Assembly: GCA_031266915.1 (NCBI GenBank) | Contig: JAISAB010000006.1 | Coordinates: forward strand, 1 to 61,241 | Source of the DNA: Rickettsiales bacterium | GTDB lineage: Bacteria > Pseudomonadota > Alphaproteobacteria > Rs-D84 | Length of the DNA stretch: 61,241 bases | Reading direction: 5' to 3' | Shown: piece after piece, positions 3,226 through 45,655 of the stretch | Numbering within the stretch: position 1 is the stretch's first letter | How the letters are laid out: each line of letters begins with the position of its first letter | The notes under the pieces: model-generated | Seen by the model: only the letters and a program-made list of their open reading frames with translations | What the model was told of the DNA's origin: nothing | The model's database searches: none | Made by a program: the position numbers and the translations under genes

Positions 3226-3416
3226 CAAGTAGGTATTGGGTACTGGGTATTAGGTACTGGTGATTGTTGAATTATATACCCAGTACCCGCAACCGTGTCA
3301 TTGCGAGGGACGTCAACCCCGCTATCACCCCTCCGCCGGAGGGGAACTTTTCGTTTCGCAATGACAATCCGGCGATTCAATGCCCAATACCCAGTACCTA
3401 GTACCCAATACCATCC
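3226..3416. repeat. palindromic element with word-repeat arms
   Basis: The outer arms are tandem variants of GGTATTGGGTACT (3228-3272) and its complement (3378-3415). The inner part is the GTCATTGCGAG/CGCAATGACA palindrome with a CCCCTCCGCCGGAGGGG hairpin. The whole unit can fold back on itself. Confidence 0.75.
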
Positions 3417-4902: not shown

Positions 4903-6702
4903 ATGTCAAAAAAAATATATGTGGATGCCGTCCACCCGGAAGAAACCAGGGTGGTGGTGGTGGAAACAGCCAACAACCGCGTTTCTGATTTCGATGTAGA
5001 AACAACGACAAAACCGCAAATCAAAGGAAATATCTATCTGGCCAAGGTCATCCGCGTCGAACCGTCGCTACAGGCGGCGTTCGTGGACTATGGAACCGGC
5101 AAGAACGGATTTCTGCCTTTTTCCGAAATCCATCCGGATAATTATCAGGTCAATGCGGAACAGAAGAAAAAGCTGCTGGAACTGGCGCATGCCAATATCG
5201 TGGATGACGACGATGACGACGAGGATGGCGAGGTCGCCGAATACGACGACAATTCCGCCGGCGAAGATAACAAGGAATTCGCCAAGCGCGCCCGCGAGTT
5301 CAAAATACAAGACGTCATAAAGCCGAAACAAATTCTGCTGGTCCAGGGCGTCAAGGAAGAACGCGGACAAAAAGGCGCGTCTATGACGACTTATTTGTCG
5401 CTGGCGGGCCGCTTTGCCGTTCTGATGCCAAATTCCCGCAAGCGCAACAGCTATGGCATTTCCAAAAAGATTTCCGATAAGCCCGAACGCGCCCGTCTGC
5501 GCAACATCCTACATGGGCTGAAGATTCCCAAGGGCATGACCGCCGTCCTGCGCACGGCGGCGTTCGGCGCGACGCCGGCCGACGTCCAAAACGACTATGA
5601 TTACCTGGTGGGCCTGTGGAACGAAATCCGCAAGACGACCTTTGAATCCATCGCCCCCGCGACAATCCATACCGAAGATTCGCTGCTGCGCCGCGTCGTG
5701 CGCGACTTTTTGTCGGACAAGGACGACACTCTGGTTATTCAGGGCGAGGCTGCGTTCGACGAAGCCAGGGCCAATTTCCAATCCATGTACGGCCACGCGC
5801 CCAAAAAGCAGCTGGTGCTGTACAAGGACGTCGCCGTGCCGCTGTTCGTCAAGACCGGCGTCGAAAAACAGCTTGAGGGTCTGCATGGTCCGTACGTCAA
5901 TCTGCCATCCGGCGGGTCGCTGGTCATCAATCAGACCGAGGCCATGGTCACAATCGACGTAAATTCGTCCCGCGCGATTAAGGAAAAAGACATCGAGCAG
6001 ACCGCCCTGAACACCAATCTGGAGGCCGCCGAGGAAATCGCCCTGCAGCTGCGCCTGCGCGATTTGGCCGGGATTGTCGCCGTCGACTTTATCGATATGG
6101 AGGAAGAGCGCAACAACCGCAAGCTGGAACTGAAAATGCGCGAGGTTATGAAGCGCGACCGCGCCCGCACCCAGGTCACCAAGATTAACAACTTCGGCGT
6201 GTTGATGCTGTCCCGCCAAAGGCTGCGCAGCAGCTTTACCGAATCGTCGTATGTCCAGTGCCCGCACTGCCTGGGCGCGGGCATCGTGCCCAGCATACAG
6301 ACTGCGTCGATTATCATGTTCCGTCATCTGCAGGAAAAGCTGTTGGCGAAAAGCGCCCAGAAAATCATCATGACGGTGCCGACGGACGTGGCCATATATC
6401 TGCTGAATCATAAAAAGGAAGAACTGTCCGACATGGAATCCAAGTTCGAAACGGAAATCATCATCGTCGGCGACGACAGCATGATGAGCATCGAACAGTA
6501 CTCAATCCAGCGCGTCGCCCCTGAAACGAACAAGACCGAAGAAGTCTTGGGCGCGCATAATCCGTCGACGGACGCGAAAAAGAAAAATCCCCAGCATGCC
6601 GAGGCGAAAAAGACGACCATGACCGCGCCGCGCCACAAGCGCCGCCGCCGAACGCAATCGCCAAAAAAGCCCAAGACATTCTGGCAGAAGATAGTTGGGT
6701 AG
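4903..6702 (+). CDS. ribonuclease E/G family endoribonuclease
   Basis: This is a 599-residue single-strand-specific endoribonuclease for mRNA decay and rRNA/tRNA maturation. The S1 domain (about residues 35-215) is interrupted by a strongly acidic insert, mostly Asp/Glu at residues 101-126. The catalytic core shows TIDVNSSR and VAVDFIDME, carrying the Mg-binding aspartates, and the Zn-link CPHCLGAG. The protein stops soon after the core in a basic tail (KRRRRTQ, KKPK). It therefore lacks the long scaffold of E. coli RNase E but is longer than typical RNase G. ATG 4903 follows AAAAGGATT. A GC hairpin terminator follows. Confidence 0.93.
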   Translation: MSKKIYVDAVHPEETRVVVVETANNRVSDFDVETTTKPQIKGNIYLAKVIRVEPSLQAAFVDYGTGKNGFLPFSEIHPDNYQVNAEQKKKLLELAHANIVDDDDDDEDGEVAEYDDNSAGEDNKEFAKRAREFKIQDVIKPKQILLVQGVKEERGQKGASMTTYLSLAGRFAVLMPNSRKRNSYGISKKISDKPERARLRNILHGLKIPKGMTAVLRTAAFGATPADVQNDYDYLVGLWNEIRKTTFESIAPATIHTEDSLLRRVVRDFLSDKDDTLVIQGEAAFDEARANFQSMYGHAPKKQLVLYKDVAVPLFVKTGVEKQLEGLHGPYVNLPSGGSLVINQTEAMVTIDVNSSRAIKEKDIEQTALNTNLEAAEEIALQLRLRDLAGIVAVDFIDMEEERNNRKLELKMREVMKRDRARTQVTKINNFGVLMLSRQRLRSSFTESSYVQCPHCLGAGIVPSIQTASIIMFRHLQEKLLAKSAQKIIMTVPTDVAIYLLNHKKEELSDMESKFETEIIIVGDDSMMSIEQYSIQRVAPETNKTEEVLGAHNPSTDAKKKNPQHAEAKKTTMTAPRHKRRRRTQSPKKPKTFWQKIVG

Positions 6703-6734: not shown

Positions 6735-7042
6735 GTTAACAATTAACAGAGCAGAGATAACAATTGTTAAATAATAAAGAATAGAGAATAAAGAATAAAT
6801 GATGTGCTCGGTATAAGTTCCCCTCCGGCGGATGGGTGGCATGCGAAGTATGCCGGGGTGGTTCGAGATTTTGAGATTAAACTCTGATTCTCTAACCACC
6901 TCCCAGTCCGCCTGCGCTTCGCTACGGCGAGACGGTACTCCTCCATAGGAGGAGAACTTAGACCGAGCGTATATTTATTCTTTATTCTCTATTCTTTATT
7001 ATTTATTAACTGTTATCTGTGCTCTGTTATTTGTTAATTGTT
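6735..7042. repeat. about 300-bp MITE-like nested palindrome
   Basis: The left arm (GTTAACAATTAACAGAGC words, then AATAAAGAATAGAG words) is mirrored by the right arm (TTATTCTTTATTCTC, then TTAACTGTTATCTGTGC). The core is a TCCCCTCCG...GGAGGAG palindrome around 6815-6960 containing GGGGTGGTTCGAG and CTAACCACC. A very similar element sits at 11205-11535. No coding capacity is seen. Confidence 0.8.
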
Positions 7043-7068
7043 AAAAAACCGCCATCGGGCGGTTTTTT
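7043..7068. terminator. bidirectional terminator
   Basis: A6-CCGCCatcgGGCGG-T6 lies at the 3' end of the minus-strand gene that stops at 7067, and also ends the repeat element on the plus strand. Confidence 0.8.
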
Positions 7069-7615
7069 ATTTATGATTGTTTTTTGCCAAAATCTTTTCA
7101 AACGCGGCGTCCGTCACGGTCAGAAATTGTCTGGTCTTGTAATCCGGCATCTTTTTATTTTCGGATTTTCGAAGTTTTTTTGCGAATTCAGTCAGGGTGT
7201 TGCGTGCCTCTGGGCTGTCATGAATCAGGTCGTATATATATTCAATTCGGATGCGTTCGAATTCGTCCGTGCTCAGCGTCAGCGGTTTTTGAGTATTCAC
7301 AGTTTGAACTTTTTCGATAGAAATATTGGCTATATGGCTTATAAAATCCAGCTTTTCTTTTTTCAATTCCAGCTTTTTAATCCGGACAAAATCATACTTG
7401 TACGGCAAATCGGCGGTTATGCTCTGCGACAGCATGGTCCCAATCGCCGTCAATAGGGCACTCAGGATATTCGGATTGTTAACCAGAATGCCCAAGGATA
7501 TTCCAATAACCAAAAGGCTTAAACAAACAGATTGCCCCGCGTCCACGCGAAACTTGGAAAGCTCTTGTTTATAGTCCAATTTCATCTGGTCTAAATCAGT
7601 TAATTCATAATCCAT
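7067..7615 (-). CDS. small membrane protein with helical tail, unknown
   Basis: This is a 182-residue protein from ATG 7615; a TTG at 7633 in frame is the alternative. Soluble charged N-terminus, then one hydrophobic hairpin at about residues 27-60, then a long charged helical region, as in many two-TM bacterial hypotheticals. No Shine-Dalgarno sequence is visible. It resembles the gene at 21459-22130 only in layout (TM hairpin plus cytoplasmic helices). No function assigned. Confidence 0.6.
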   Translation of the reverse strand: MDYELTDLDQMKLDYKQELSKFRVDAGQSVCLSLLVIGISLGILVNNPNILSALLTAIGTMLSQSITADLPYKYDFVRIKKLELKKEKLDFISHIANISIEKVQTVNTQKPLTLSTDEFERIRIEYIYDLIHDSPEARNTLTEFAKKLRKSENKKMPDYKTRQFLTVTDAAFEKILAKNNHK

Positions 7616-7653
7616 GGCCGGACTGTAGCGCAAATAATAGTTTTGTCAATAAA

Positions 7654-7782
7654 AAGTAGTTAGTAGCTATTCGCTAGTAACTAGTAGCTAGTGGTTAGTC
7701 GCCAAAGTCGTCGGCCTCGCTGATACATTCACTATTGACTACTGACTAGCTACTAACGACTAGCTACTAACTACTATTTGAC
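7654..7782. repeat. word-repeat inverted element
   Basis: Tandem TAGTTAGTAGC/TAGTAACTAG words (7656-7700) are mirrored by CTAGCTACTAACTAC words (7740-7775), with a short unrelated centre. Confidence 0.7.
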
Positions 7783-7806
7783 TAAATCGCGCGTTTCTAT
7801 TACATT
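7778..7806 (+). promoter_or_regulatory. recG promoter, nearly leaderless
   Basis: TTGACT (7778-7783), 17-base spacer, TACATT (7801-7806). ATG 7816 lies only nine bases after the -10, so the transcript should begin at or within about three bases of the start codon. The -35 lies at the edge of a word-repeat element. Confidence 0.6.
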
Positions 7807-7815
7807 TCTGAATAT

Positions 7816-9891
7816 ATGAAGAAAGAATTAGTCGATTTTCTGAATACCGACCTGCAGTTTATCAAAGGCGTGGGGCCGGTCTTGGCGTCCCGATTCAACG
7901 AAGTTCTGGGCGGCCGCCGGGTTCTGGACTTCATGCTGCACAGGCCGGCTTACGTCCGTTCGCGTGAAATCATCGACGGCGCGCATTCGGCAAAATCGGG
8001 CGATATTATCACTGTATCGGTCCAGGTAAAATCGCACAAGCCGGGCGGGACATTTCGTGGTCGCCGCACGCCGACCCAGATTGTCTGCCATGACAAATTG
8101 GGCGGCAATGTCGTGATACAGTTCTTCGGCTCCAGTTTTTTGGATTACTGGCTGGGAAAGCTGCCAATCGGCGAATGGCGCGTCGTCAGCGGACGAGTCG
8201 ACTTCAACGGCCGTGGCGACGCGGTCATCAATCATCCTGAATTTATCGAGACGCCCGAAAACGCAGCCAAAATTCCAACCGCCCAGGCGGTGTATCCGGC
8301 GGGCGACGGCGTCACGCAGAAATCGTTCACGAATGTGCGCGACAGCGTTTTCGCGGTCCTGGCGGATAAAATGGCGGCTGGGAATCAGGAACCGGAATCA
8401 ACAGAATTCTTTGCAGCGCTGCGTCAGGTGCACTTTCCGCAAAGCGCCGACGACCTGGCACCGACATCCGACGCGATGATGAAGCTGGCGTATTGCGAAT
8501 TATTCGCGCATCAGTCCGCAATCGCAATCAGCCGCCGCGCGCGCGCGACCGAACGCCACCAGCAACCGCCGCGCGATAAAAAACACGACTTGCTGCCAAA
8601 GTTCTATTCGGCGCTGCCGTTTTCGCTGACCGGCGCCCAGGAACGCGCATTGTCGGAAATTTTCGACGATATGAAAAAATCCGTTCCAATGATGCGCCTG
8701 GTCCAAGGCGACGTCGGCAGCGGCAAGACCGTCGTCGCCCTGGCCGCCGCGACCGCGATGGCCGAATTCAGCGCCCAGACCGTATTGTTGGCGCCGACCG
8801 ACACGCTGGCGCAGCAGCATTATGCCAAGCTGAAACCGATCTGCGATTCTATCGGGATTTTCTGCGACATCCTGACCGGCCGCGACAAGGGCAAGCCGCG
8901 CGGCGAAAAGTTAATATCATTGCGTTCGGGCCGCACCAGGCTGGCCGTCGGAACACACGCGCTGTTTTCCGAAGACGTGGAATACAAAGATTTGGGCTTG
9001 GTCGTTATTGATGAACAGCACCGTTTCGGCGTGGCCCAGCGCGAGGCCATGCGCGCCAAGGGCGCGAACCCAGATTTGCTGGCGCTGTCGGCAACGCCGA
9101 TTCCGCGAACGCTGTCCATGACCGTTTACGGCGATATGGATATTTCGATTATCAATGAAAAGCCCGCGGGCCGGCTGCCGATTAAAACTACCAAATTGTC
9201 CGCGATACGCGCGGGCGAACTGGCGGGCCGATTGGCCGCGCAGGTTGCTGCCGGCGCGAAAGTTTTCTGGGTCTGTCCGCTGGTCGAAGAATCCGAAGCG
9301 TCCGACCTGATGGCCGCCGAAAAAAGATATGAATTTCTTACATCATCCATCATCCATCATCCATCATCCATAGGAATCGTGCACGGCAAAATGGATAAAA
9401 AACAGCGCGACCGGGTTATGGACGAATTCGCCGCCGCGGATTCCAAAATGCGCGTCTTGGTTTCCACCACCGTGATAGAGGTCGGAATTGATGTCCCCGC
9501 CGCGACGATTATGGTCATCGAAAACGCCGAGAGATTCGGCCTGGCGGCATTGCACCAACTGCGCGGGCGCGTGGGCCGCGGGTCGGCGAAATCGTTCTGC
9601 ATTCTGATGTTCGGAAACAATATCACCGAAGAAGGGCTGAAGCGTTTGGATGTCTTGTGTGAAACTGACGATGGATTTCTGATTGCCGAACAGGATTTGA
9701 TGATGCGCGGCGTTGGCGAATTGCTTGGGACGAAACAGTCCGGCTGGATAGCGTATCATTTCGTTGATTATCGCGAGCATCGCGACCTGTTCAAACTGGC
9801 CGGCCTGCGCGCCAGCGAAGCTGACGGGGTTTCCCCATGGCCGCGCGATTTGATGTTTATCTTCGGCCAGGAACTGACGGTGAAAGCATGA
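7816..9891 (+). CDS. recG: ATP-dependent DNA helicase RecG
   Basis: This is a 691-residue superfamily-2 helicase that regresses stalled forks and processes branched DNA. Seen in order: N-terminal wedge/OB domain (about residues 55-170), Walker A GDVGSGKT (about 298), DEQH box, ALSATPIPRT (motif III), STTVIEVGIDVP (motif V), HQLRGRVGRG (motif VI). Length matches the family. Around residue 510, between helicase motifs, there is an inserted Ser/Ile/His stretch encoded by a tandem CATCATC word array (9340-9373). The stop overlaps the start of the next gene (ATGA). Confidence 0.95.
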   Translation: MKKELVDFLNTDLQFIKGVGPVLASRFNEVLGGRRVLDFMLHRPAYVRSREIIDGAHSAKSGDIITVSVQVKSHKPGGTFRGRRTPTQIVCHDKLGGNVVIQFFGSSFLDYWLGKLPIGEWRVVSGRVDFNGRGDAVINHPEFIETPENAAKIPTAQAVYPAGDGVTQKSFTNVRDSVFAVLADKMAAGNQEPESTEFFAALRQVHFPQSADDLAPTSDAMMKLAYCELFAHQSAIAISRRARATERHQQPPRDKKHDLLPKFYSALPFSLTGAQERALSEIFDDMKKSVPMMRLVQGDVGSGKTVVALAAATAMAEFSAQTVLLAPTDTLAQQHYAKLKPICDSIGIFCDILTGRDKGKPRGEKLISLRSGRTRLAVGTHALFSEDVEYKDLGLVVIDEQHRFGVAQREAMRAKGANPDLLALSATPIPRTLSMTVYGDMDISIINEKPAGRLPIKTTKLSAIRAGELAGRLAAQVAAGAKVFWVCPLVEESEASDLMAAEKRYEFLTSSIIHHPSSIGIVHGKMDKKQRDRVMDEFAAADSKMRVLVSTTVIEVGIDVPAATIMVIENAERFGLAALHQLRGRVGRGSAKSFCILMFGNNITEEGLKRLDVLCETDDGFLIAEQDLMMRGVGELLGTKQSGWIAYHFVDYREHRDLFKLAGLRASEADGVSPWPRDLMFIFGQELTVKA

Positions 9892-11752: not shown

Positions 11753-11806
11753 AACCAAGCCGCAACAAGACCAATACTCCGTTATAAGTTATATTAGGTG
11801 GGAATT

Positions 11807-13456
11807 ATGAATACAAAGATTAAATTTATCGCGATGCTGGCGGTTTCGATATTCGGAATTATTTTTAATGCCGGCGCGAATATTTCATCTGTGGGTTATT
11901 TGCATAAGACCATTTTGGATTTAAAAAATATCTCGGTTCCAATCGATTCGGGCGTTCGCAGCGAATCGGTCCACAGCGTCAAGTACATGATGACGCAAAT
12001 CGATTCGGCGAACAAACTCTTGAACGGATTCGCATCGTCCAATTACGCGGCCAGCGCCAACGTCGGTTCAATCGTCGCAACAACAAAAGTCGAATCCGCC
12101 GTTTCGGAGCTTATAAAAAAAGTATCCCAAGGATTTTCACTGCAATTGACGAATGCCGACACATTTGATTTCAGAATATCGGCGCGCGGGAATTTCTCAA
12201 TCTATTGGGGCGACGGCACCATCGATGAAGTAAACAAACAAAATACGACCAATACTACATACACGCATAATTATGCAAGCGCCGGGAATTACACCGTGTC
12301 GGTATCCGGATTGGCGACGGAATACAACACGGGGACATCAACGGCGGCGATTTCATTCGGCAGTTCGACAGTCAAAACAAAGATAACCGGAATTTCGGGC
12401 AGCTTAAGCAACATATTCCCGACCCTGGCCAATGGTGCAAACCCCAGATTTTATCGAACCTTTTATGGTTGTACTGGCTTGACCGGTTCAATCCCGCCGA
12501 AACTGTTCAACGGTCTGTCCGGCGCCTATGTGGCAAACATGTTTGATAGTACGTTTCGCGATTGCACTGGCCTGACGGGCAGTATTCCGCCTGATTTGTT
12601 CAACGGTCTATCCGGTGCCCCGGCGTCATACATGTTTAATTATACATTTGCTGGTTGCACCGGTCTGACCGGCAAAATCCCCGCGGAACTGTTCAAGGGT
12701 CTGTCCGGTGCCCCCGCGGAACGCATGTTTAATTCTACATTTTCTAGTTGTACCGGCTTGAGCGGTTCAATCCCCAGCGGTCTGTTCAGCGGTATATCCG
12801 GCGCCCCGGCGTCATACATGTTTTATTGGACATTTAGCGGTTGCAAAGGCCTGACGGGCGCAATCCCCAGCGGTTTGTTCAGCGGTATATCCGGCGCCCC
12901 GGCAAACCAGATGTTTATGAGTACATTTAGTGATTGCACTGGCCTGACGGGCGCAATCCCCGCTGGTTTGTTTGGCAATATATCCGGCGCCCCGGCAGCC
13001 TATATGTTTACTGGTACATTTGATAATTGCAAGGGCCTGACCGGCAAAATCCCTAGTGGTCTGTTTGGCAATATATCGGGCGCCCCGGCGGTATATATGT
13101 TTAGTGATACATTCAATGATTGTTCCGGATTGACCGGTGAAATCCCCAGCGGTTTGTTCGGTAATTTATCCGGCGCCCCGGCGTCAAACATGTTTTCTGG
13201 TACATTTTCTGGTTGTTCCAAATTGGAATCTTTTGGGGATGGCATATGGAATTTGACCAGCGTCAACAATTCAAGCGGCAATAGTTTATTCACAAACTTT
13301 TGTCATTTGTGTATGAAAATAACGTCTGCATCGCCGTCGATTGCGTCGGGCAGCAATGTAAAGCTGTGGCAGCATTTCACAAACTATTCCACCAAGGCGT
13401 TTACCAGCGCCACGAGTTTGGCGGACTATGCGGATATTCCGTCAACCTGGAAGTAA
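11807..13456 (+). CDS. BspA-like surface protein with PKD-like domain and 31-residue repeats
   Basis: This is a 549-residue exported protein from ATG 11807 (AGGTGGG upstream; in-frame GTG at 11798 rejected). Signal peptide at residues 1-25. An N-terminal domain (about 26-110) shares the pattern SV.YL..., YMMTQIDSANKLLNG, KVE.A with the protein at 60077. A PKD-like segment (YWGDGT...TYTHNYASAGNYTVSV) lies at about 130-165. Eight near-perfect 31-residue repeats of the CTGLTGSIPPDLFNGLSGAP type follow, resembling BspA/Treponema leucine-rich surface repeats. Probably a surface adhesin or ligand-binding protein. It sits directly behind structured RNA copy A. Confidence 0.8.
   Translation: MNTKIKFIAMLAVSIFGIIFNAGANISSVGYLHKTILDLKNISVPIDSGVRSESVHSVKYMMTQIDSANKLLNGFASSNYAASANVGSIVATTKVESAVSELIKKVSQGFSLQLTNADTFDFRISARGNFSIYWGDGTIDEVNKQNTTNTTYTHNYASAGNYTVSVSGLATEYNTGTSTAAISFGSSTVKTKITGISGSLSNIFPTLANGANPRFYRTFYGCTGLTGSIPPKLFNGLSGAYVANMFDSTFRDCTGLTGSIPPDLFNGLSGAPASYMFNYTFAGCTGLTGKIPAELFKGLSGAPAERMFNSTFSSCTGLSGSIPSGLFSGISGAPASYMFYWTFSGCKGLTGAIPSGLFSGISGAPANQMFMSTFSDCTGLTGAIPAGLFGNISGAPAAYMFTGTFDNCKGLTGKIPSGLFGNISGAPAVYMFSDTFNDCSGLTGEIPSGLFGNLSGAPASNMFSGTFSGCSKLESFGDGIWNLTSVNNSSGNSLFTNFCHLCMKITSASPSIASGSNVKLWQHFTNYSTKAFTSATSLADYADIPSTWK
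12470..13213 (+). repeat. eight tandem 93-bp repeats within the surface-protein gene
   Basis: Each unit encodes C-x-GL-x-G-x-IP-x-x-LF-x-x-x-SGAP-x-x-x-MF-x-x-TF-x-x. Units 4-8 are closest to each other. Such arrays can change copy number by slippage or recombination. Confidence 0.85.
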
Positions 13457-30075: not shown

Positions 30076-30666
30076 ATGAAATCCGACAGACTAAGCCGCA
30101 ACAAAACTTTGAAAGTTCCGAAAATCGTCAAAAACGAAGCCGGTCCGGCGAACAGCGCGGACGATTTGTTTTCTGTCAAACAAGGCTCTGCCATGGGGTT
30201 CGGCGTGAAATTCGACAAGAAAAAAGAACAGGCCCGGGCCGTGGCCGTCGACGCGGAACTGGACATGGTTTCGAAAATATCGGACGAATCCAGCGACCTG
30301 GCGGTCGTGACGCGCGCCAAAAAACTGGGCGCTTATATATTGGCAATATCGATGAAATCGCCGCAAAAATTTCGTGCGACGTATGTGGCGCGGATGCAGA
30401 ATCTATGCCTGGACGCAATATCCGATATGTTTCGCGCAAACACCGTCCGCGCGGACAGCGTGGAAAACAAGACAAAGCGCGAACAGTTTCAGACCGACGC
30501 GATAATCAGGCTGAAAATGCTGGGCTATATCGCGCTGCTGGCGGAAAACTCAGGATGCATACTGTTGCGCCAGTACAAGCAAATATCGCTGCAGCTGGGC
30601 GATGTCATCGGTCTGTGCGCCGCGTGGCGCAAAAGCGACAACGATAAATGGGGGGCCAGGCAATAA
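30076..30666 (+). CDS. avd: DGR accessory variability determinant (Avd-like)
   Basis: This is a 196-residue protein from ATG 30076 (AACAGG upstream; ATG 30034 also in frame). Residues about 85-196 form the four-helix-bundle pattern of Avd: KKLGAYILAISMKSPQKFRA, QNLCLDAISDMFRAN, RLKMLGYIALLAENSG, ISLQLGDVIGLCAAW. In known DGRs Avd forms a ring that binds the reverse transcriptase and template RNA. An extra basic N-terminal arm of about 80 residues is unusual. It sits 46 bp before the template repeat and 370 bp before the reverse transcriptase, the standard order. A weak promoter (TTGAAA 29985-29990, 17 bases, TAAGTT) lies upstream. Confidence 0.8.
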   Translation: MKSDRLSRNKTLKVPKIVKNEAGPANSADDLFSVKQGSAMGFGVKFDKKKEQARAVAVDAELDMVSKISDESSDLAVVTRAKKLGAYILAISMKSPQKFRATYVARMQNLCLDAISDMFRANTVRADSVENKTKREQFQTDAIIRLKMLGYIALLAENSGCILLRQYKQISLQLGDVIGLCAAWRKSDNDKWGARQ

Positions 30667-30712
30667 AAATTCGAAGCCTTGGGGCTTTGAACAAGGGAAA
30701 GCTTGTTTTTTG

Positions 30713-30833
30713 ACGGGTTATCTGTGGTCGTCTTCTGATAATGGTAATAATAATGTTCGCACCGTGAATGAAAACGGTAACAAGAACTAAAACAATCCTA
30801 ATAAACGGAAACTGGCCGCCCGTCCCGATTTGC
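30713..30833 (+). repeat. DGR template repeat (TR)
   Basis: 121 bp matching 38851-38971 with no gaps. I count 20 mismatches, of which 18 are at TR adenines (A to T, C or G). The other two are T at 30788 and G at 30808. In the target's frame it reads TGYLWSSSDNG, NNN, VRTVNENGNKN, stop, NNPNKRKLAARPDLL, with the adenines clustered in AAT/AAC codons. Non-coding in itself. Confidence 0.95.
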
Positions 30834-31039
30834 TGCTGTAAAAAACGCCTGAAATGCGGACTGGACGCACAGCCCGCCCGCGCGCAGAGCAAAGGAAGCT
30901 TTCTCTTTTCCATATGCGGGTGAGACCCGCGGCGGAAGAACGAAAAACGACGACAATCGTTTCAAGGAACACCACGCGCGTTGACGTGAAAATTTTAACG
31001 CCGCTATTTGGTGTTCCTTTTTTCTTGATAAAACGAAAA
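30834..31039 (+). other. DGR spacer RNA region between TR and reverse transcriptase
   Basis: About 200 bp rich in foldback: GGAAGCTTTC.., GCGGGTgagACCCGC, and a perfect 11-bp inverted repeat AAGGAACACCA (30964-30974) / TGGTGTTCCTT (31009-31019) ending 20 bases before the reverse-transcriptase ATG. In characterised DGRs the TR-RT spacer RNA is needed to prime cDNA synthesis, so this is the candidate priming structure. Confidence 0.6.
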
Positions 31040-32077
31040 ATGAATCTAAGCGAAATATTCACGTTTGAAAATCTGCACGCGGCGCATGAATTATGCCGCC
31101 GCGGCAAGCAGCACAAGCGCGGCACGATAATGTTCGAACTGGACGCGGGTCCGGCGATTGCGAAACTGGCCGCTGAACTGGCGACGCGGAAATACAAAAT
31201 CGGAAAATATCGCGAGTTCAAACTGTATGACCCCAAGGAACGCAAGATAAAGGCATTGCCCTATCGGGACCGCGTCGTGCAGATGTGTTTTTGCAAGAAT
31301 GCGCTGGAACCGCGATTGGAAAAGCGCCTGATTCATGACAACGCCGCGTCGCGTGCTGGCCGCGGAACGGACTTTTCGGTGCGGCGCCTGCATCGATTCA
31401 TTCGGGCGTCGTTTATAAATGCCGGCGGCAACGGCGCGTATTTTCTGAAATGCGACGTCGCGAAGTATTTCCCCAGCATCAATCACGACGTCTTGTTATC
31501 CAAATTGTGGCGCTGCGGCTTTTCATCGGACGAGATGTGGTTCATGGAAATGGTAATCAAATCCCACGGAGACGCTGGCGTTCCGCTGGGCAATCAGACC
31601 AGCCAGTGGTTCGCGCTGCTGTATCTGGACGATGTCGACAGATTGATTAAGGAAAAGCTGCGCGTCGCGCACTATGTGCGGTATATGGACGATTTCGTGC
31701 TGCTGCATCCGGACAAGGATTTTTTGCAAAAATGCCGCGGCGAAATCCAGCGTTTCTGCGCGGACAAATTAAAGTTGAAACTGAATGCGAAGACGCAAAT
31801 CGGCCGGTTGAAAAACGGATTGGATTTTCTGGGATTCAATCACAAGCTGACGGCGACGGGGCGCGTCGTCAAGCGCATGCGGGCATCGGCGCGGGCGCGC
31901 CAGCGGCGGTACTTGAAAACCCTGTCGCATTGTTATCTGAACGACGTTGTCGACGACGAGTATCTGGCCGCGCGTCGTGCATCGTTTCGCGCGCATATGG
32001 CTGGCACCGCGGACAGAAAGTTCGTAATGAACAGAATCAACACGCTGCGACGCATAAAAAAGATGAAAAACCAATAG
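31040..32077 (+). CDS. DGR reverse transcriptase
   Basis: This is a 345-residue protein from ATG 31040. Palm motifs: KCDVAKYFPSI (catalytic Asp about 139), VPLGNQTSQWFALLYLDDVD (residues 181-200, DGR-type GxxxSQ where group II intron enzymes have QGG), YVRYMDDFVLL (residues 212-222, catalytic YMDD), and LDFLGFNH thumb start. No maturase or endonuclease domain, as in DGR enzymes. Together with Avd it should copy TR RNA with adenine misincorporation and write the cDNA into the variable repeat at 38851. A longer in-frame start at 30854 would run through the spacer and is rejected. Confidence 0.93.
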   Translation: MNLSEIFTFENLHAAHELCRRGKQHKRGTIMFELDAGPAIAKLAAELATRKYKIGKYREFKLYDPKERKIKALPYRDRVVQMCFCKNALEPRLEKRLIHDNAASRAGRGTDFSVRRLHRFIRASFINAGGNGAYFLKCDVAKYFPSINHDVLLSKLWRCGFSSDEMWFMEMVIKSHGDAGVPLGNQTSQWFALLYLDDVDRLIKEKLRVAHYVRYMDDFVLLHPDKDFLQKCRGEIQRFCADKLKLKLNAKTQIGRLKNGLDFLGFNHKLTATGRVVKRMRASARARQRRYLKTLSHCYLNDVVDDEYLAARRASFRAHMAGTADRKFVMNRINTLRRIKKMKNQ

Positions 32078-38496: not shown

Positions 38497-38620
38497 GTAC
38501 TGGGTATTAGGTATTGGGTACTAAATCGCAGGATTACCACGGGGCTGACGCCCCTCGCAATGACAAAGTGGTGATTCAGTACCCAGTAACTAATACCTAG
38601 TACCCAATACCCAGTTCCCA
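38497..38620. repeat. palindromic element with GGTACTGGGTATT arms
   Basis: GGTACTGGGTATTAGG words (38497-38525) are mirrored by ACCCAGTAACTAATACC words (38579-38618), enclosing GGGGCTGACGCCCCTCGCAATGAC. The right arm touches the promoter of the DGR target. Confidence 0.75.
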
Positions 38621-38697: not shown

Positions 38698-38949
38698 ATG
38701 GACATCACATTTCTAAAAGAAGAACAAATCTGGGGCAGCAACGCCTTGGATGTTATAAAAGAGTATGGAACCAAAACAAATCTGACCGATTTGGCCATTG
38801 TTTTGGGCGGTTATATGGGGTCGAATACGATGACTAGTGACGGTCTTCGGTCGGGTTCTCTGTGGTCGTCTTCTGATAATGGTTATACTTATGTTCGCAC
38901 CGTGTTTGCTAACGGTGACAAGAGCCGCTCCGATCCTAATAAACGTTAA
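38698..38949 (+). CDS. DGR target: C-type-lectin-like domain protein, cut by a VR-encoded stop
   Basis: This is an 83-residue protein from ATG 38698. The N-terminal part IWGSNALDVIKEYGTK, TDLAIVLGGYM and GLRSGSLWSSSDNG follows the pattern of the lectin-like domain that precedes GEYPQ-type domains in gut bacterial proteins (recalled family knowledge). The C-terminal 33 codons are the variable repeat: YTY, VRTV, FANG, DKSRSDPNKR, then TAA 38947-38949. The frame stays open beyond the TAA (LAARPALPKSV...) straight into the ATPase at 38968, in phase. The TR codon at the stop is AAA, so the stop looks like a product of DGR mutagenesis in an originally fused protein. Confidence 0.85.
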   Translation: MDITFLKEEQIWGSNALDVIKEYGTKTNLTDLAIVLGGYMGSNTMTSDGLRSGSLWSSSDNGYTYVRTVFANGDKSRSDPNKR

Positions 38950-38971
38950 CTGGCCGCCCGTCCCGCTTTGC
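38851..38971 (+). repeat. DGR variable repeat (VR)
   Basis: Counterpart of TR 30713-30833 at a constant offset of 8138. Changes hit AAT to TAT, ACT, TAT and TTT; GAA to GCT; AAC to GAC, AGC and TCC; AAT to GAT; AAA to TAA. The invariant 3' block CTGGCCGCCCGTCCCG is the likely initiation-of-mutagenic-homing region. One A to C change (38966) lies just downstream of it. Confidence 0.95.
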
Positions 38972-40662
38972 CAAAATCTGTAATCCAGCAAATCCGCCCG
39001 AGCGCAGCGAGGGCCCCGGCGACGAAGTCGCCGACGCGCAAAATTGGTAAAATCGAAATTCGTCAATTCGGCGAATATCCCCAAACAATCGCCCCAGACA
39101 ACATCGGCAGGGAACTAGAGGGTGCCTTAAAGGCCAAAATCCTGCGCGCGACGGGCGACAAATATACCTTTGACGGCGAGGCCTATGATGCCTTTGACAA
39201 ACCGTTCAAACCGGTCGATTACCCCGAATACGAATACCATGGCGAACGGTATATCCGCGTTCTGGCCGACCCGCGCGACAGCGATTCCATTCTGTCGAAC
39301 GGCAAAGTGCCAAAAAAGGGCGAACCGTGCTGGGTTCAAGTCCAGCCCATAGAATGGATGGTCGACCCGGGTGGATGGTGGGTGGCGTACAAGGCCTTGT
39401 TCGCCGGCGTGCAGTTCGATAACGCTAGCAGTTACGACGGCGATTTTTCCAAAACTAATATGAAAAAGTATTTGGACAAATACTTCGCGCCGCAAATGCA
39501 GCATGGCCGCGTACCGCGGCAAAGCGCCCAGGAATTCGGCGAAGCGACGCGCAAGATTTCGCACGGTGTCACCATAATCGACGAACCCATGTCCGTCGGC
39601 GAACAGATTGGCGTTTACATCAAAAACGGAAAATCGTTCATGCTGCACGGGCCGTCAGGCGTCGGCAAAACCGCCCGGGTCGAGGCTGTAGACCCCAACC
39701 TGACCGCCGTGCCGCTGTGGAACGGCGTCTTGCCCGAAGACATCGTGGGCAAGGTTCGCTATCCCAGCGGCCAGGTTGCCCCGCTGATGGCGCCGGACGA
39801 ATCCGGCGAAGCCGCGCTGGAAAAACTGGCCAATGGCGGCGTTTGGGTTCCGCCGGACTGGTATGTAGAACTGGTCAAAAAATGCGATGCCGAACCGAAC
39901 AAACAGCATGTCCTGTTTATCGATGAAGTTACGAACGCCAAGCCGACAACGCAATCGCTGATATTCCACGTCGTGTTGAAAAAATCCATCAGCCCGTCCA
40001 AGGGCAAACTGCCCGCCAACGCGGTCATCGTGCTGGCCGGAAACGACAAGACCGAATCGGGCGCTGCGTACAACATGCCCGCGCCGCTGTTCCGGCGCAT
40101 GTCGGGACATATTTATCTGCAATTGAATTTGCCGGAATGGCTGGAATGGGCGTCAGAAAAATCGCGCAAATACCCGGACGATCCGAATCGCCTGAATGCG
40201 CATCCGCTGGTGGCGGCGTTCCTGTCTACATACCCCGATGCTTTTTATTCCGACTATGACGAAGACAATCCTGGTCAGTGGGCCATCGACCCACGCGGAT
40301 GGGAACAGATTTCAGATATAATTTACGACAATGGCAATACTATCCGCCGCGAACTGATTGAAAACAAAATCGGCGTGGAAAACGCCGCGACGCTGCTGGC
40401 CTTTGCTCGCGAGCCGTTTTTAACGGCGGAAAATGTCCTGGACGGCAATTACAATAAAAATGACGTGCCCGAAGACCAAACACGACGTCTGGCGACTGCG
40501 CTGGGGATGCGCCATGTGTCCCCGCGTCAGGTCGAGAAAGTCCGAGAATTTATCGGCAAACATCTGGGCGCGGAAAACTTGGCGATATTCGATTCCAAGT
40601 GGGTTGGCGACAATGACGAGCGCGCGATTCAAATCTCGCAAATGAAAGAAAAGGACAGATGA
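38968..40662 (+). CDS. MoxR-type AAA+ ATPase with N-terminal GEYPQ domain (downstream part of the DGR target)
   Basis: 564 residues if started at TTG 38968, which lies inside the VR and has no ribosome site. Residues 30-185 are the GEYPQ domain (IRQFGEYPQTI, EYEYHGERYIRV, WVQVQPIEWMVD, LFAGVQFDN). The AAA+ core has Walker A GPSGVGKT (228-235), Walker B VLFIDE (315-320), sensor 1 VLAGND (355-360) and the Arg-finger region PLFRRM (373-378). No ATG occurs before residue 131. It is in phase with the lectin-like ORF, so the natural product is probably one protein of about 654 residues: lectin-like VR domain, GEYPQ domain, AAA+. It is followed one base later by the next gene. MoxR ATPases remodel complexes together with VWA partners, and one is encoded here. 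Confidence 0.85.
   Translation: MPKSVIQQIRPSAARAPATKSPTRKIGKIEIRQFGEYPQTIAPDNIGRELEGALKAKILRATGDKYTFDGEAYDAFDKPFKPVDYPEYEYHGERYIRVLADPRDSDSILSNGKVPKKGEPCWVQVQPIEWMVDPGGWWVAYKALFAGVQFDNASSYDGDFSKTNMKKYLDKYFAPQMQHGRVPRQSAQEFGEATRKISHGVTIIDEPMSVGEQIGVYIKNGKSFMLHGPSGVGKTARVEAVDPNLTAVPLWNGVLPEDIVGKVRYPSGQVAPLMAPDESGEAALEKLANGGVWVPPDWYVELVKKCDAEPNKQHVLFIDEVTNAKPTTQSLIFHVVLKKSISPSKGKLPANAVIVLAGNDKTESGAAYNMPAPLFRRMSGHIYLQLNLPEWLEWASEKSRKYPDDPNRLNAHPLVAAFLSTYPDAFYSDYDEDNPGQWAIDPRGWEQISDIIYDNGNTIRRELIENKIGVENAATLLAFAREPFLTAENVLDGNYNKNDVPEDQTRRLATALGMRHVSPRQVEKVREFIGKHLGAENLAIFDSKWVGDNDERAIQISQMKEKDR
39017..39033 (+). other. hairpin/cruciform downstream of the VR
   Basis: CGGCGAC-gaa-GTCGCCG, a perfect 7-bp inverted repeat with a 3-base loop, 46 bp after the VR end. 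Characterised DGRs need a hairpin or cruciform just after the VR for efficient homing. This one is also within coding sequence. Confidence 0.5.
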
Positions 40663-40663
40663 C

Positions 40664-41035
40664 ATGGCGGCAATATCATCCCGAAAAATAAAACTGAAAA
40701 CAGTTCTGGCAGGCAACACAAAATGGCCGCTGGTCATCGTGGGCGCGATTGCCGCGGATTTCGATGCGCCGGTCATGCCGGCCATAATTCCAGAGCGCGA
40801 TTTGAACACCGGCGGGTGGGTCGGCGAATTAATCGATATGCGTGCCGCGCGGATGGTTATCGGCGGGCTGGACAAGCTGTCGGACACGCAGCAGCAAAAA
40901 TTCGCGCGTCTGTTAAAAGACCGCCGCGCAGGGACGCGCCGGATGCCCGACAATATTCAGATTATAATCCTGGTTGAATCCGCGAATGTGCTGTCGAAAC
41001 AAATACGCGATTTGTGTCTGGTGTGGAATGTTTGA
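40664..41035 (+). CDS. degenerate AAA+-like small protein
   Basis: This is a 123-residue protein, ATG one base after the ATPase stop. The middle (GWVGELIDMRAARMVIGGLD, then KLSDTQQQKFARLLKDRRAG, RRMPDNIQIIILVES, LSKQIRDLCLVW) mirrors the Walker B to sensor 2 stretch of MoxR-like ATPases. However, there is no P-loop, and Walker B acidic residues are replaced (MVIGGLD). Probably a non-catalytic partner or regulator in the ATPase ring. The stop overlaps the VWA gene start. Confidence 0.65.
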   Translation: MAAISSRKIKLKTVLAGNTKWPLVIVGAIAADFDAPVMPAIIPERDLNTGGWVGELIDMRAARMVIGGLDKLSDTQQQKFARLLKDRRAGTRRMPDNIQIIILVESANVLSKQIRDLCLVWNV

Positions 41036-42542
41036 TTCGTTCAAAGAAAAACTTTTCGGAAAATCGATTGAAAAGCTGCGCCAGGCGGAAGACATTGAAT
41101 ACGTCCGCAACGCGGTTTTGCGAAAGTTTCCGCTGCTGGGGACAACCATGGCGCGATTGAAAACCGTGTCTGATGACGGTGTCGGAACGGCCGGCACGGA
41201 TGGGCAAACGGTTTATTATTCGCCGACATTTTTCGAAACACTTTCCGACCAGCAAAAGGTTTTCGTCTATGCGCACGAGGTCATGCATGTCGCGTTCGAC
41301 CATATCCTGCGCAGTGGAAACCGCGACCACAAATTATGGAACCAGGCGACCGACGCGGTAATCAACCAGATGCTGAAATCCGAAGGGTTGCCCATGGCCG
41401 ACGGCGGCATCGACATTGCCGAGGCCATCAATCATTCCGCCGAAGAAATGTATGAAAAATTATTAAAAGAAAAAGAAGAAAAAAAGAAAGAAAATAAAAA
41501 GGAAAAGAAAAAAGAAAAGCAGGGTGGCCAGGGCCAGCCGGACGACTCGCAAGACAATGATGACGGCGGCGACGACGACGACAATGAACAGGCTGGTCAC
41601 GACAATCACGAAATCTGGAAAGACGCCGTGAAAAAACACGAGCGGCAAGAACGCGAAAAAGAAGAAAAATCCAAATCAAAGCCAAAGCCGCAACCTCAAC
41701 CTAAACCGCAACCTCAACCGTCATCAGCCGGCGACCAGTCACCGAAAAACGCGCCGGACGGTGGAACGCGCCAATTCGACGGCTGGTCGCCCGCCGATGA
41801 CGGCGAGTTTGAAAAAGGATTCCGAGAACACAACCGCGGCACAAGGCAGGCCGCCGCAGACGCCGCCAAAAAGCAACTGGCCATCGAAAAAAACCGCGCC
41901 ATGGACGCGCAGATTGCGGACAGCGCGCGCTCGTTCGGCGATGTCGGAAAATCCGACGCCGCGATGAACTGGAAACGGGTTTTGAAAAAAAGCCTGGAAA
42001 CCGAACACGACAGATGGTCCTATCGCCGGTCGGAGGCCGACAATGATTTTATGGCGCGGGTCGAAGAAATCGACGATGAAGATAAAGCACAGACTCAGGT
42101 TCTGCTGGACACATCCGGTTCGGTCAGCGACGAATTCCTGCGCGAATTCTTGCGGCAATTAAAACCGCTGCTGAAAAATTCCGAACTGGGCGTCGGATGC
42201 TTTGACCACCGGTTTCATCCTTTTGTCGAAATAAAAACCGACCGGGACATCGACAGTTTCAAAATCCCGGACAAGGGCAACACGGACTGGGACCTGGCCG
42301 TGAAATCTTTTTCACAGAAAAAACATGTCAACAAAATCGTATTCACCGACGGCGAAACGCCGGGCCGGATGCCGGGCCCGGAAACCGCCGGAATAAATGT
42401 TATCTGGCTGGTGTACGGCAACGAAGAATTCAATCCCGTATGCGGCCGCGTCATACGCGTGCAAAAAAAATCAATCGAGCAGAACTTTATCCGCGCGCCG
42501 TCCGCCGAACAAATCGCCGCGGCGCGCCGCCAAAAAAATTGA
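41028..42542 (+). CDS. DUF2201-type metallopeptidase-like / VWA-like protein
   Basis: This is a 504-residue protein from ATG 41028, overlapping the previous gene by eight bases. N-terminal domain contains AHEVMHVAFDH (HExxH at 83-87), as in the putative metallopeptidase part of DUF2201. A long Lys/Glu-rich then Asp-rich linker follows (about residues 145-250, with PQPQPKPQPQP). The C-terminal VWA-like domain has LLDTSGSVSDEF (DTSGS at 361-365, partial MIDAS) and TDGETPG. MoxR plus VWA pairs act together as chelatase-like remodelling machines. This operon adds a DGR-diversified sensor. Confidence 0.88.
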   Translation: MFDSFKEKLFGKSIEKLRQAEDIEYVRNAVLRKFPLLGTTMARLKTVSDDGVGTAGTDGQTVYYSPTFFETLSDQQKVFVYAHEVMHVAFDHILRSGNRDHKLWNQATDAVINQMLKSEGLPMADGGIDIAEAINHSAEEMYEKLLKEKEEKKKENKKEKKKEKQGGQGQPDDSQDNDDGGDDDDNEQAGHDNHEIWKDAVKKHERQEREKEEKSKSKPKPQPQPKPQPQPSSAGDQSPKNAPDGGTRQFDGWSPADDGEFEKGFREHNRGTRQAAADAAKKQLAIEKNRAMDAQIADSARSFGDVGKSDAAMNWKRVLKKSLETEHDRWSYRRSEADNDFMARVEEIDDEDKAQTQVLLDTSGSVSDEFLREFLRQLKPLLKNSELGVGCFDHRFHPFVEIKTDRDIDSFKIPDKGNTDWDLAVKSFSQKKHVNKIVFTDGETPGRMPGPETAGINVIWLVYGNEEFNPVCGRVIRVQKKSIEQNFIRAPSAEQIAAARRQKN

Positions 42543-45480: not shown

Positions 45481-45607
45481 CGTCAAACTCCTTTGTTATG
45501 AGAACTAACACCTTTATTAATTTAATAATAGCAGCATTTATAAGAACATTCAAGTGAAAATAACGGAGTATGGCAATGCAGCGCGGTCATTCGGCTTATA
45601 TATTACG

Positions 45608-45655
45608 AATTATCCAATACCCAGTACCCAATACCTAATACCCAGTACCCACAAT
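45608..45655. repeat. word array, CCAATACCCAGTA type
   Basis: Tandem ACCCAGTACCCAATACCTA words, same family as 3226 and 38497, single arm only. Confidence 0.65.

Follow-up and report, generated by a model that had tools for sequence, protein, structure and literature searches.

A stop codon almost certainly written by a diversity-generating retroelement into a MoxR-type ATPase fusion gene

The fusion gene and its operon

The window analysed here is a stretch of 61 241 nt from a Rickettsiales bacterium (assembly GCA_031266915.1, contig JAISAB010000006.1, positions 1–61 241). As had been predicted from the sequence alone, the reading frame at 38698–40662 (+) is open apart from a single TAA at 38947–38949 (+); without this codon the frame runs for 654 codons into a MoxR-type AAA+ ATPase. 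The stop shortens the N-terminal domain to 83 codons (38698–38946, +), the start of which is conserved in relatives. The remainder of the frame (38950–40662, +) encodes a GEYPQ/IEW domain and the ATPase, which was matched weakly by Pfam AAA_5 and other AAA models and carries a Walker A motif (GPSGVGKT) near 39650–39673. A model of the read-through protein (mean pLDDT 74) gave NorQ, a MoxR-type ATPase, as the best PDB match at a low TM score, and the assignment to the MoxR clade is based on this fold match together with the weak Pfam AAA models. The N-terminal domain modelled alone (pLDDT 77) had no PDB match and gave weak matches in a viral library, some of them to DUF6273 proteins; the original description of this domain as lectin-like was therefore not confirmed and stays a guess by analogy with other targets of diversity-generating retroelements (DGRs).

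The fusion gene is the first in a tightly packed operon. The ATG of the second gene (40664–41035, +) lies 1 nt past the ATPase stop; its 123-residue product, of unassigned family, is kept at four related loci (L022, L023, L034 and L035) and matched no Pfam, PADLOC or NCBIfam model. The third gene (41028–42542, +), the ATG of which overlaps the end of the second, encodes a DUF2201_N metallopeptidase-like and DUF2201 VWA protein (Pfam E = 3.1e-33 and 1e-9, respectively).

The N-terminal domain, the GEYPQ/IEW domain and the AAA+ ATPase were found in one unbroken frame in six relatives of the same class (L022, L023, L025, L027, L084 from genome G493, which ends at a contig edge, and L085 from G589), all of which have a sense codon and never a stop where the window has TAA. 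The prediction that the natural gene is one fusion is borne out by these uninterrupted relatives, and the TAA was rejected as an ancestral gene end because they are open there; a TAA common to all relatives was sought as evidence to the contrary and is not what they carry. The part of the domain lost by truncation holds an RP motif that is invariant in 21 aligned domains. In the samples searched the fusion family was seen only in small-genome members of the same class, the named relatives of which are mostly Alphaproteobacteria metagenome-assembled genomes (MAGs), and one distant ATPase relative was found in a Clostridia MAG. No further relatives of the N-terminal domain were found in a 399-genome sample of the phylum. 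Scans of IMG/VR returned no relatives of the ATPase part and no copy of the template core or of the repeat-end and hairpin motif described below; a phage collection gave no match to the N-terminal part and a plasmid collection gave distant ATPases only.

The retroelement and its variable repeat

A complete DGR, consisting of the accessory protein Avd, a template repeat (TR) and a reverse transcriptase (RT), spans 30076–32077 of the window. The Avd gene (30076–30666, +) was matched by NCBIfam DivGenRetAVD (E = 1.9e-4, below the model cut-off) and weakly by Pfam bAvd; although the profile score is under the cut-off, the gene was assigned as Avd from its position and its conservation in relatives (51–65% identity to the Avd of L022, L029 and L033). 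The TR (30711–30833, +) was identified by its ungapped, adenine-biased match to the variable repeat (VR). The RT (31040–32077, +; RVT_1 E = 8.5e-18) contains LGNQTSQ and YMDD and thus carries the DGR RT signature of an (I/V/L)GxxxSQ motif plus YMDD (PMC3521204); DGR RTs of the same family share 61–63% mutual identity. The RT and Avd frames are both intact.

The VR (about 38851–38970, +) aligns with the TR without gaps at an offset of 8138; its 3′ part is conserved and resembles an initiation of mutagenic homing (IMH) site, with a GC-rich segment at 38950–38965. In the VR core 17 of 38 template adenines are changed, versus two of 77 other bases (38926 T>C and 38946 G>T; binomial P about 5e-7), the pattern of a near-identical repeat pair with substitutions at template adenines that characterizes DGRs. 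A further difference, 38966 A>C, was considered as mutagenesis and rejected, as it belongs to a fixed 3′ difference (GAT/GCT) common to seven of eight TR/VR pairs. The TAA faces a TR codon AAA (30809–30811, +) of which the first adenine is mutable, in agreement with the original prediction.

Within the TR itself an in-frame TAA, a feature beyond the original prediction, is present at 30788–30790 (+, in the VR reading frame), where the VR has CGC and relatives have TGG. The modelled chance of a stop at this codon is 0.49 per new copy, and because of it 61% of new window VR copies are modelled to carry a stop of some kind. This template TAA fits relaxed selection and a mostly-off locus alike. 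The second RT locus of the same genome yielded no further TR for the window VR.

A covarying hairpin (38996–39014, +) lies in the coding frame 35 nt past the GCTTTG at the 3′ end of the VR and has the form stem-GA-RC-NNN-GY-GA-stem. Across 11 loci 97% of pair cells are standard pairs, with changes on both sides in four of the six pairs; shifted registers gave 20–42% standard pairs over the same loci. A combined search for the VR 3′ end and the hairpin gave one occurrence in the genome of the window and no more than one in any of twelve others, and a reversed control gave no match in the same genome and twelve chosen genomes. L023 and L025, for which the searches gave no matching TR (in the case of L025, among the loci examined), have a shorter stem.

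The cassette resembles that of Bordetella phage BPP-1 (mtd) in having Avd, TR, RT and adenine-specific transfer from TR to VR, as well as a GC-rich 3′ end with fixed mismatches (the IMH) and a hairpin downstream of the VR (PMC3240598). In BPP-1 the VR is C-terminal and the hairpin follows it at the gene end, whereas in the window the VR is N-terminal (residues about 52–91 of 654, with about 560 residues including the ATPase following). The window hairpin resembles the BPP-1 homing hairpin by position and form, yet it is translated here (PMC3240598). A C-terminal VR is near-universal, although not strictly defining, in DGR targets, and Roux et al. explain this by the freedom of such elements from coding constraint outside genes (PMC8144416); the fusion family, with an in-frame hairpin and an N-terminal VR, is an exception to this explanation.

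The same genome contains a second DGR (L045, contig C14) with its target at 4953–5501 (+), RT at 6818–7831 (−) and TR at about 8320–8445 (−). It is conventional, with a C-terminal VR and with only AAC and AAT as template AAN codons. Similar TR/VR pairs lie near related RTs in G072 (L046) and G001 (L047), and neither these nor L045 have lysine codons in their variable parts. Within one genome, therefore, one DGR keeps both usual rules (a C-terminal VR and no stop-prone codons) and the other does not.

Other repeats in the window comprise six or more tandem copies with a 93 bp period at 12446–13210, inside an open reading frame at 11798–13456, and dispersed intergenic repeats at 3356–3412, 38555–38611 and 45579–45649 with short tandem words, e.g. 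TACCCAGTACC.

Stops in related repeat pairs

A codon-level comparison covered eight TR/VR pairs from seven genomes; the compared genomes are draft assemblies, most of them fragmented, and the allele counts are small. Opposite the position of the stop codon, AAA stands in the TR of seven of the eight pairs (the window and six others). The VRs of these six others all have a sense codon there (ATA in L022, AAA in L033, GAA in L100, CCC in G620, AGA in G493 and ACG in G589), mutated at adenines in five. The TAA is therefore a DGR product, and we conclude from the alignments that the DGR almost certainly wrote 38947–38949 into the fusion gene. In G493 the adenine of the following codon is also changed, which places the mutable region beyond the stop codon. 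G620 has a non-adenine mismatch at the base before this codon, as does the window at 38946 (G in TR, T in VR), so some homing events may leave this 3′-most codon as it was.

Two of the related genomes have DGR-made stops elsewhere in the VR: one in L033 (AAA>TAA) and three in G620 (AAA>TAA, AAG>TAG and AAT>TAG, the last of which needs a T>G change besides the adenine change). The original prediction that the DGR made the stop is upheld by the adenine position, its mutability in relatives and these two further independent cases, which also indicate that the retroelement can disable, and in principle restore, its own target. Pooled over the eight pairs, 128 of 270 template adenines are changed versus 11 of 603 other bases. 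Six of these 11 mismatches, all of which lie in the VR cores, turn a template T into G, in many cases beside changed adenines, and are possibly a secondary error of these RTs. The template of L033 has a second target on another contig (L100, 5596–5900, in G420), the VR of which is open and is followed immediately by a 1 nt frameshift.

The G493 and G589 loci (L084 and L085) are 99.3% identical over 5.8 kb and have identical TRs. Their VRs differ at 29 of 122 sites, 28 of these at template adenines, against four of 1822 sites in the rest of the gene; divergence focused in this way on the VR indicates that such DGRs act in nature, homing activity being seen in this pair only. The two loci are labelled as different genera, which points to recent transfer or a mis-binned contig; one of them is a lone 5.8 kb contig, so mis-binning is possible, and the two alleles stand regardless.

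The expected number of stopped VRs was calculated from pooled rates (A>T 0.17, A>G 0.20, A>C 0.10). Three of the eight VRs carry stops, against 2.39 expected under random adenine mutagenesis. A significant excess was rejected [P(3 or more) = 0.45 for alleles; P = 0.19 for AAA/AAG codons], and there is thus no clear sign that stops are either favoured or purged. Of the 22 related genes without a matching TR in the parts of their genomes searched, not one carries a stop in the region equivalent to the VR (Fisher P = 0.014; this test is indicative only because the compared genes are related to each other).

DGR templates are reported to avoid nonsense codons (PMC10907252), and the BPP-1 RT makes fewer stops from AAA and AAG than expected (PMC12875486). 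Stop-proof template codons are usual, not strictly defining, for DGRs (PMC10907252, PMC12875486), and in the eight templates examined here 26 of 94 AAN codons are stop-capable (17 AAA and nine AAG). The BPP-1 template is almost all AAC, whereas that of the window has AAA, AAG and TAA. The original statement that most templates place AAC or AAT at mutable sites agrees with the literature in general; it has exceptions, as mutated template lysine codons have been reported in the Treponema denticola DGRs (TvpA family; PMC4891356). The window is like these in this respect and unlike them in position: there the VR is a C-terminal C-type lectin domain, in which a stop would remove the end of the protein only.

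Origin and meaning of the stop

Taken together, the comparisons of sequence indicate that the gene is very probably a fusion by descent, that its TAA was written by the DGR and that the simplest explanation of the stop is as a recurring by-product of the AAA and AAG codons kept in the templates; a reversible loss of function as by-product is the best supported reading. The RT would have miscopied the first adenine of the template AAA during mutagenic homing, giving TAA. Translation would then end after residue 83 and reach neither the conserved RPALP segment nor any of the ATPase, so that the allele would yield an 83-residue fragment with neither ATPase nor fusion protein; expression of the two coupled partner genes may also be lowered. 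As the template has AAA at this codon, further homing would usually remove the stop (the model gives about 0.09 for a stop arising there anew), and the loss should be reversible in principle. The in-frame TAA of the window TR lowers the chance of full restoration, and a fully open VR would be the minority outcome of homing.

Decay of the locus, with the TAA codons of VR and TR as early steps of pseudogene formation, is unlikely. The template TAA would fit it, as would the frameshift just after the VR in L100 and the history of L026, which has lost the DGR and the ATPase part although its N-terminal domain is 82% identical to that of L022; on the other hand the RT, Avd, about 570 further fusion codons, the 123-residue gene and the VWA gene are all open. 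An evolved on/off switch is rather improbable. Under this reading selection would maintain template codons that can turn into stops, since a population would gain from some cells having the ATPase module switched off (bet-hedging). It would account for the 26 of 94 stop-capable AAN codons and the AAA at the stop position in seven of eight pairs, set against the sister DGRs of this genome and of two further ones, which lack lysine codons at variable sites, and with an N-terminal VR each stop is a full knock-out. The share of stopped alleles, however, does not exceed what random mutagenesis would give (P = 0.45; for AAA/AAG codons P = 0.19), and lysine may have been retained for its role in the protein. 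The retroelement had originally been proposed as a possible switch: that it writes stops into its gene holds, and use as a switch is a possibility only, stopped alleles being as many as expected at random. It is likewise doubtful that a DGR with an N-terminal VR is both diversifier and reversible switch, with the AAA and AAG codons of the template (in the window also TAA) setting the off-probability of each homing round.

It is very unlikely that the stop is harmless because an internal start or reinitiation provides the ATPase on its own. A TTG at 38968 lies 18 nt past the stop, and many relatives share a methionine immediately ahead of the AAA+ core. This TTG is the sole ATG, GTG or TTG before 39307 and, as foreseen, has no ribosome site (Shine–Dalgarno match 1/6); moreover, it belongs to the conserved 3′ end of the VR and is also present in the TR. 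The first in-frame ATG after the stop is at 39358, the 137th codon, in line with the predicted absence of an ATG for 130 residues, and no Shine–Dalgarno match exceeds 3/6 until that point. A search for an independent ATPase start, which would have spoken against a single fusion, found none led by a Shine–Dalgarno sequence, and relatives keep the single long frame. Slighter still is the chance of an assembly artefact, in which the assembled VR would combine different alleles of the population and the TAA would be present in no actual cell: all of the genomes are assemblies, most of them fragmented, the VR is hypervariable and G620 has runs of N in its ATPase, but a single-codon TAA must exist in some reads and such stops occur in three separate assemblies.

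The locus can be set beside two further kinds of known system. Like a phase-variable gene, the fusion gene could be put out of action in part of a population by a frequent local change that is in principle revertible; the difference is that this change comes about by template-directed retrohoming and goes together with diversification, and reversibility here is in principle only. In gene content the operon is like the DGR-linked MoxR–vWA (VMAP-type) ternary conflict systems, in which a DGR-diversified domain, a MoxR ATPase and a VWA protein are combined (PMC7159879, PMC10907252), the VWA partner here being the DUF2201 VWA-like domain. The third component of these systems is a VMAP, an inactive STAND, an FtsH or a beta-propeller with an effector, and a PADLOC search of the module gave no VMAP or known effector. 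In the ternary systems of multicellular bacteria the diversified domain forms a C-terminus, often that of the VWA protein, the ATPase has its own gene and the templates avoid nonsense codons, whereas in the window the diversified domain precedes the ATPase in a single fused frame. By analogy with these systems, the N-terminal domain most likely binds a ligand and would pass a signal to the MoxR ring and the VWA partner (PMC7159879, PMC10907252).

A search of freely accessible papers found no DGR-made stop that cuts off a fused enzyme and no DGR on/off switch. The fusion family breaks two rules drawn from surveys, the C-terminal VR and the stop-avoiding template. Whether switching is within the reach of a DGR becomes here a question about a single 120 bp stretch, and the stopped alleles, occurring at random frequency, provide a natural and countable measure of the cost of diversification by a retroelement.
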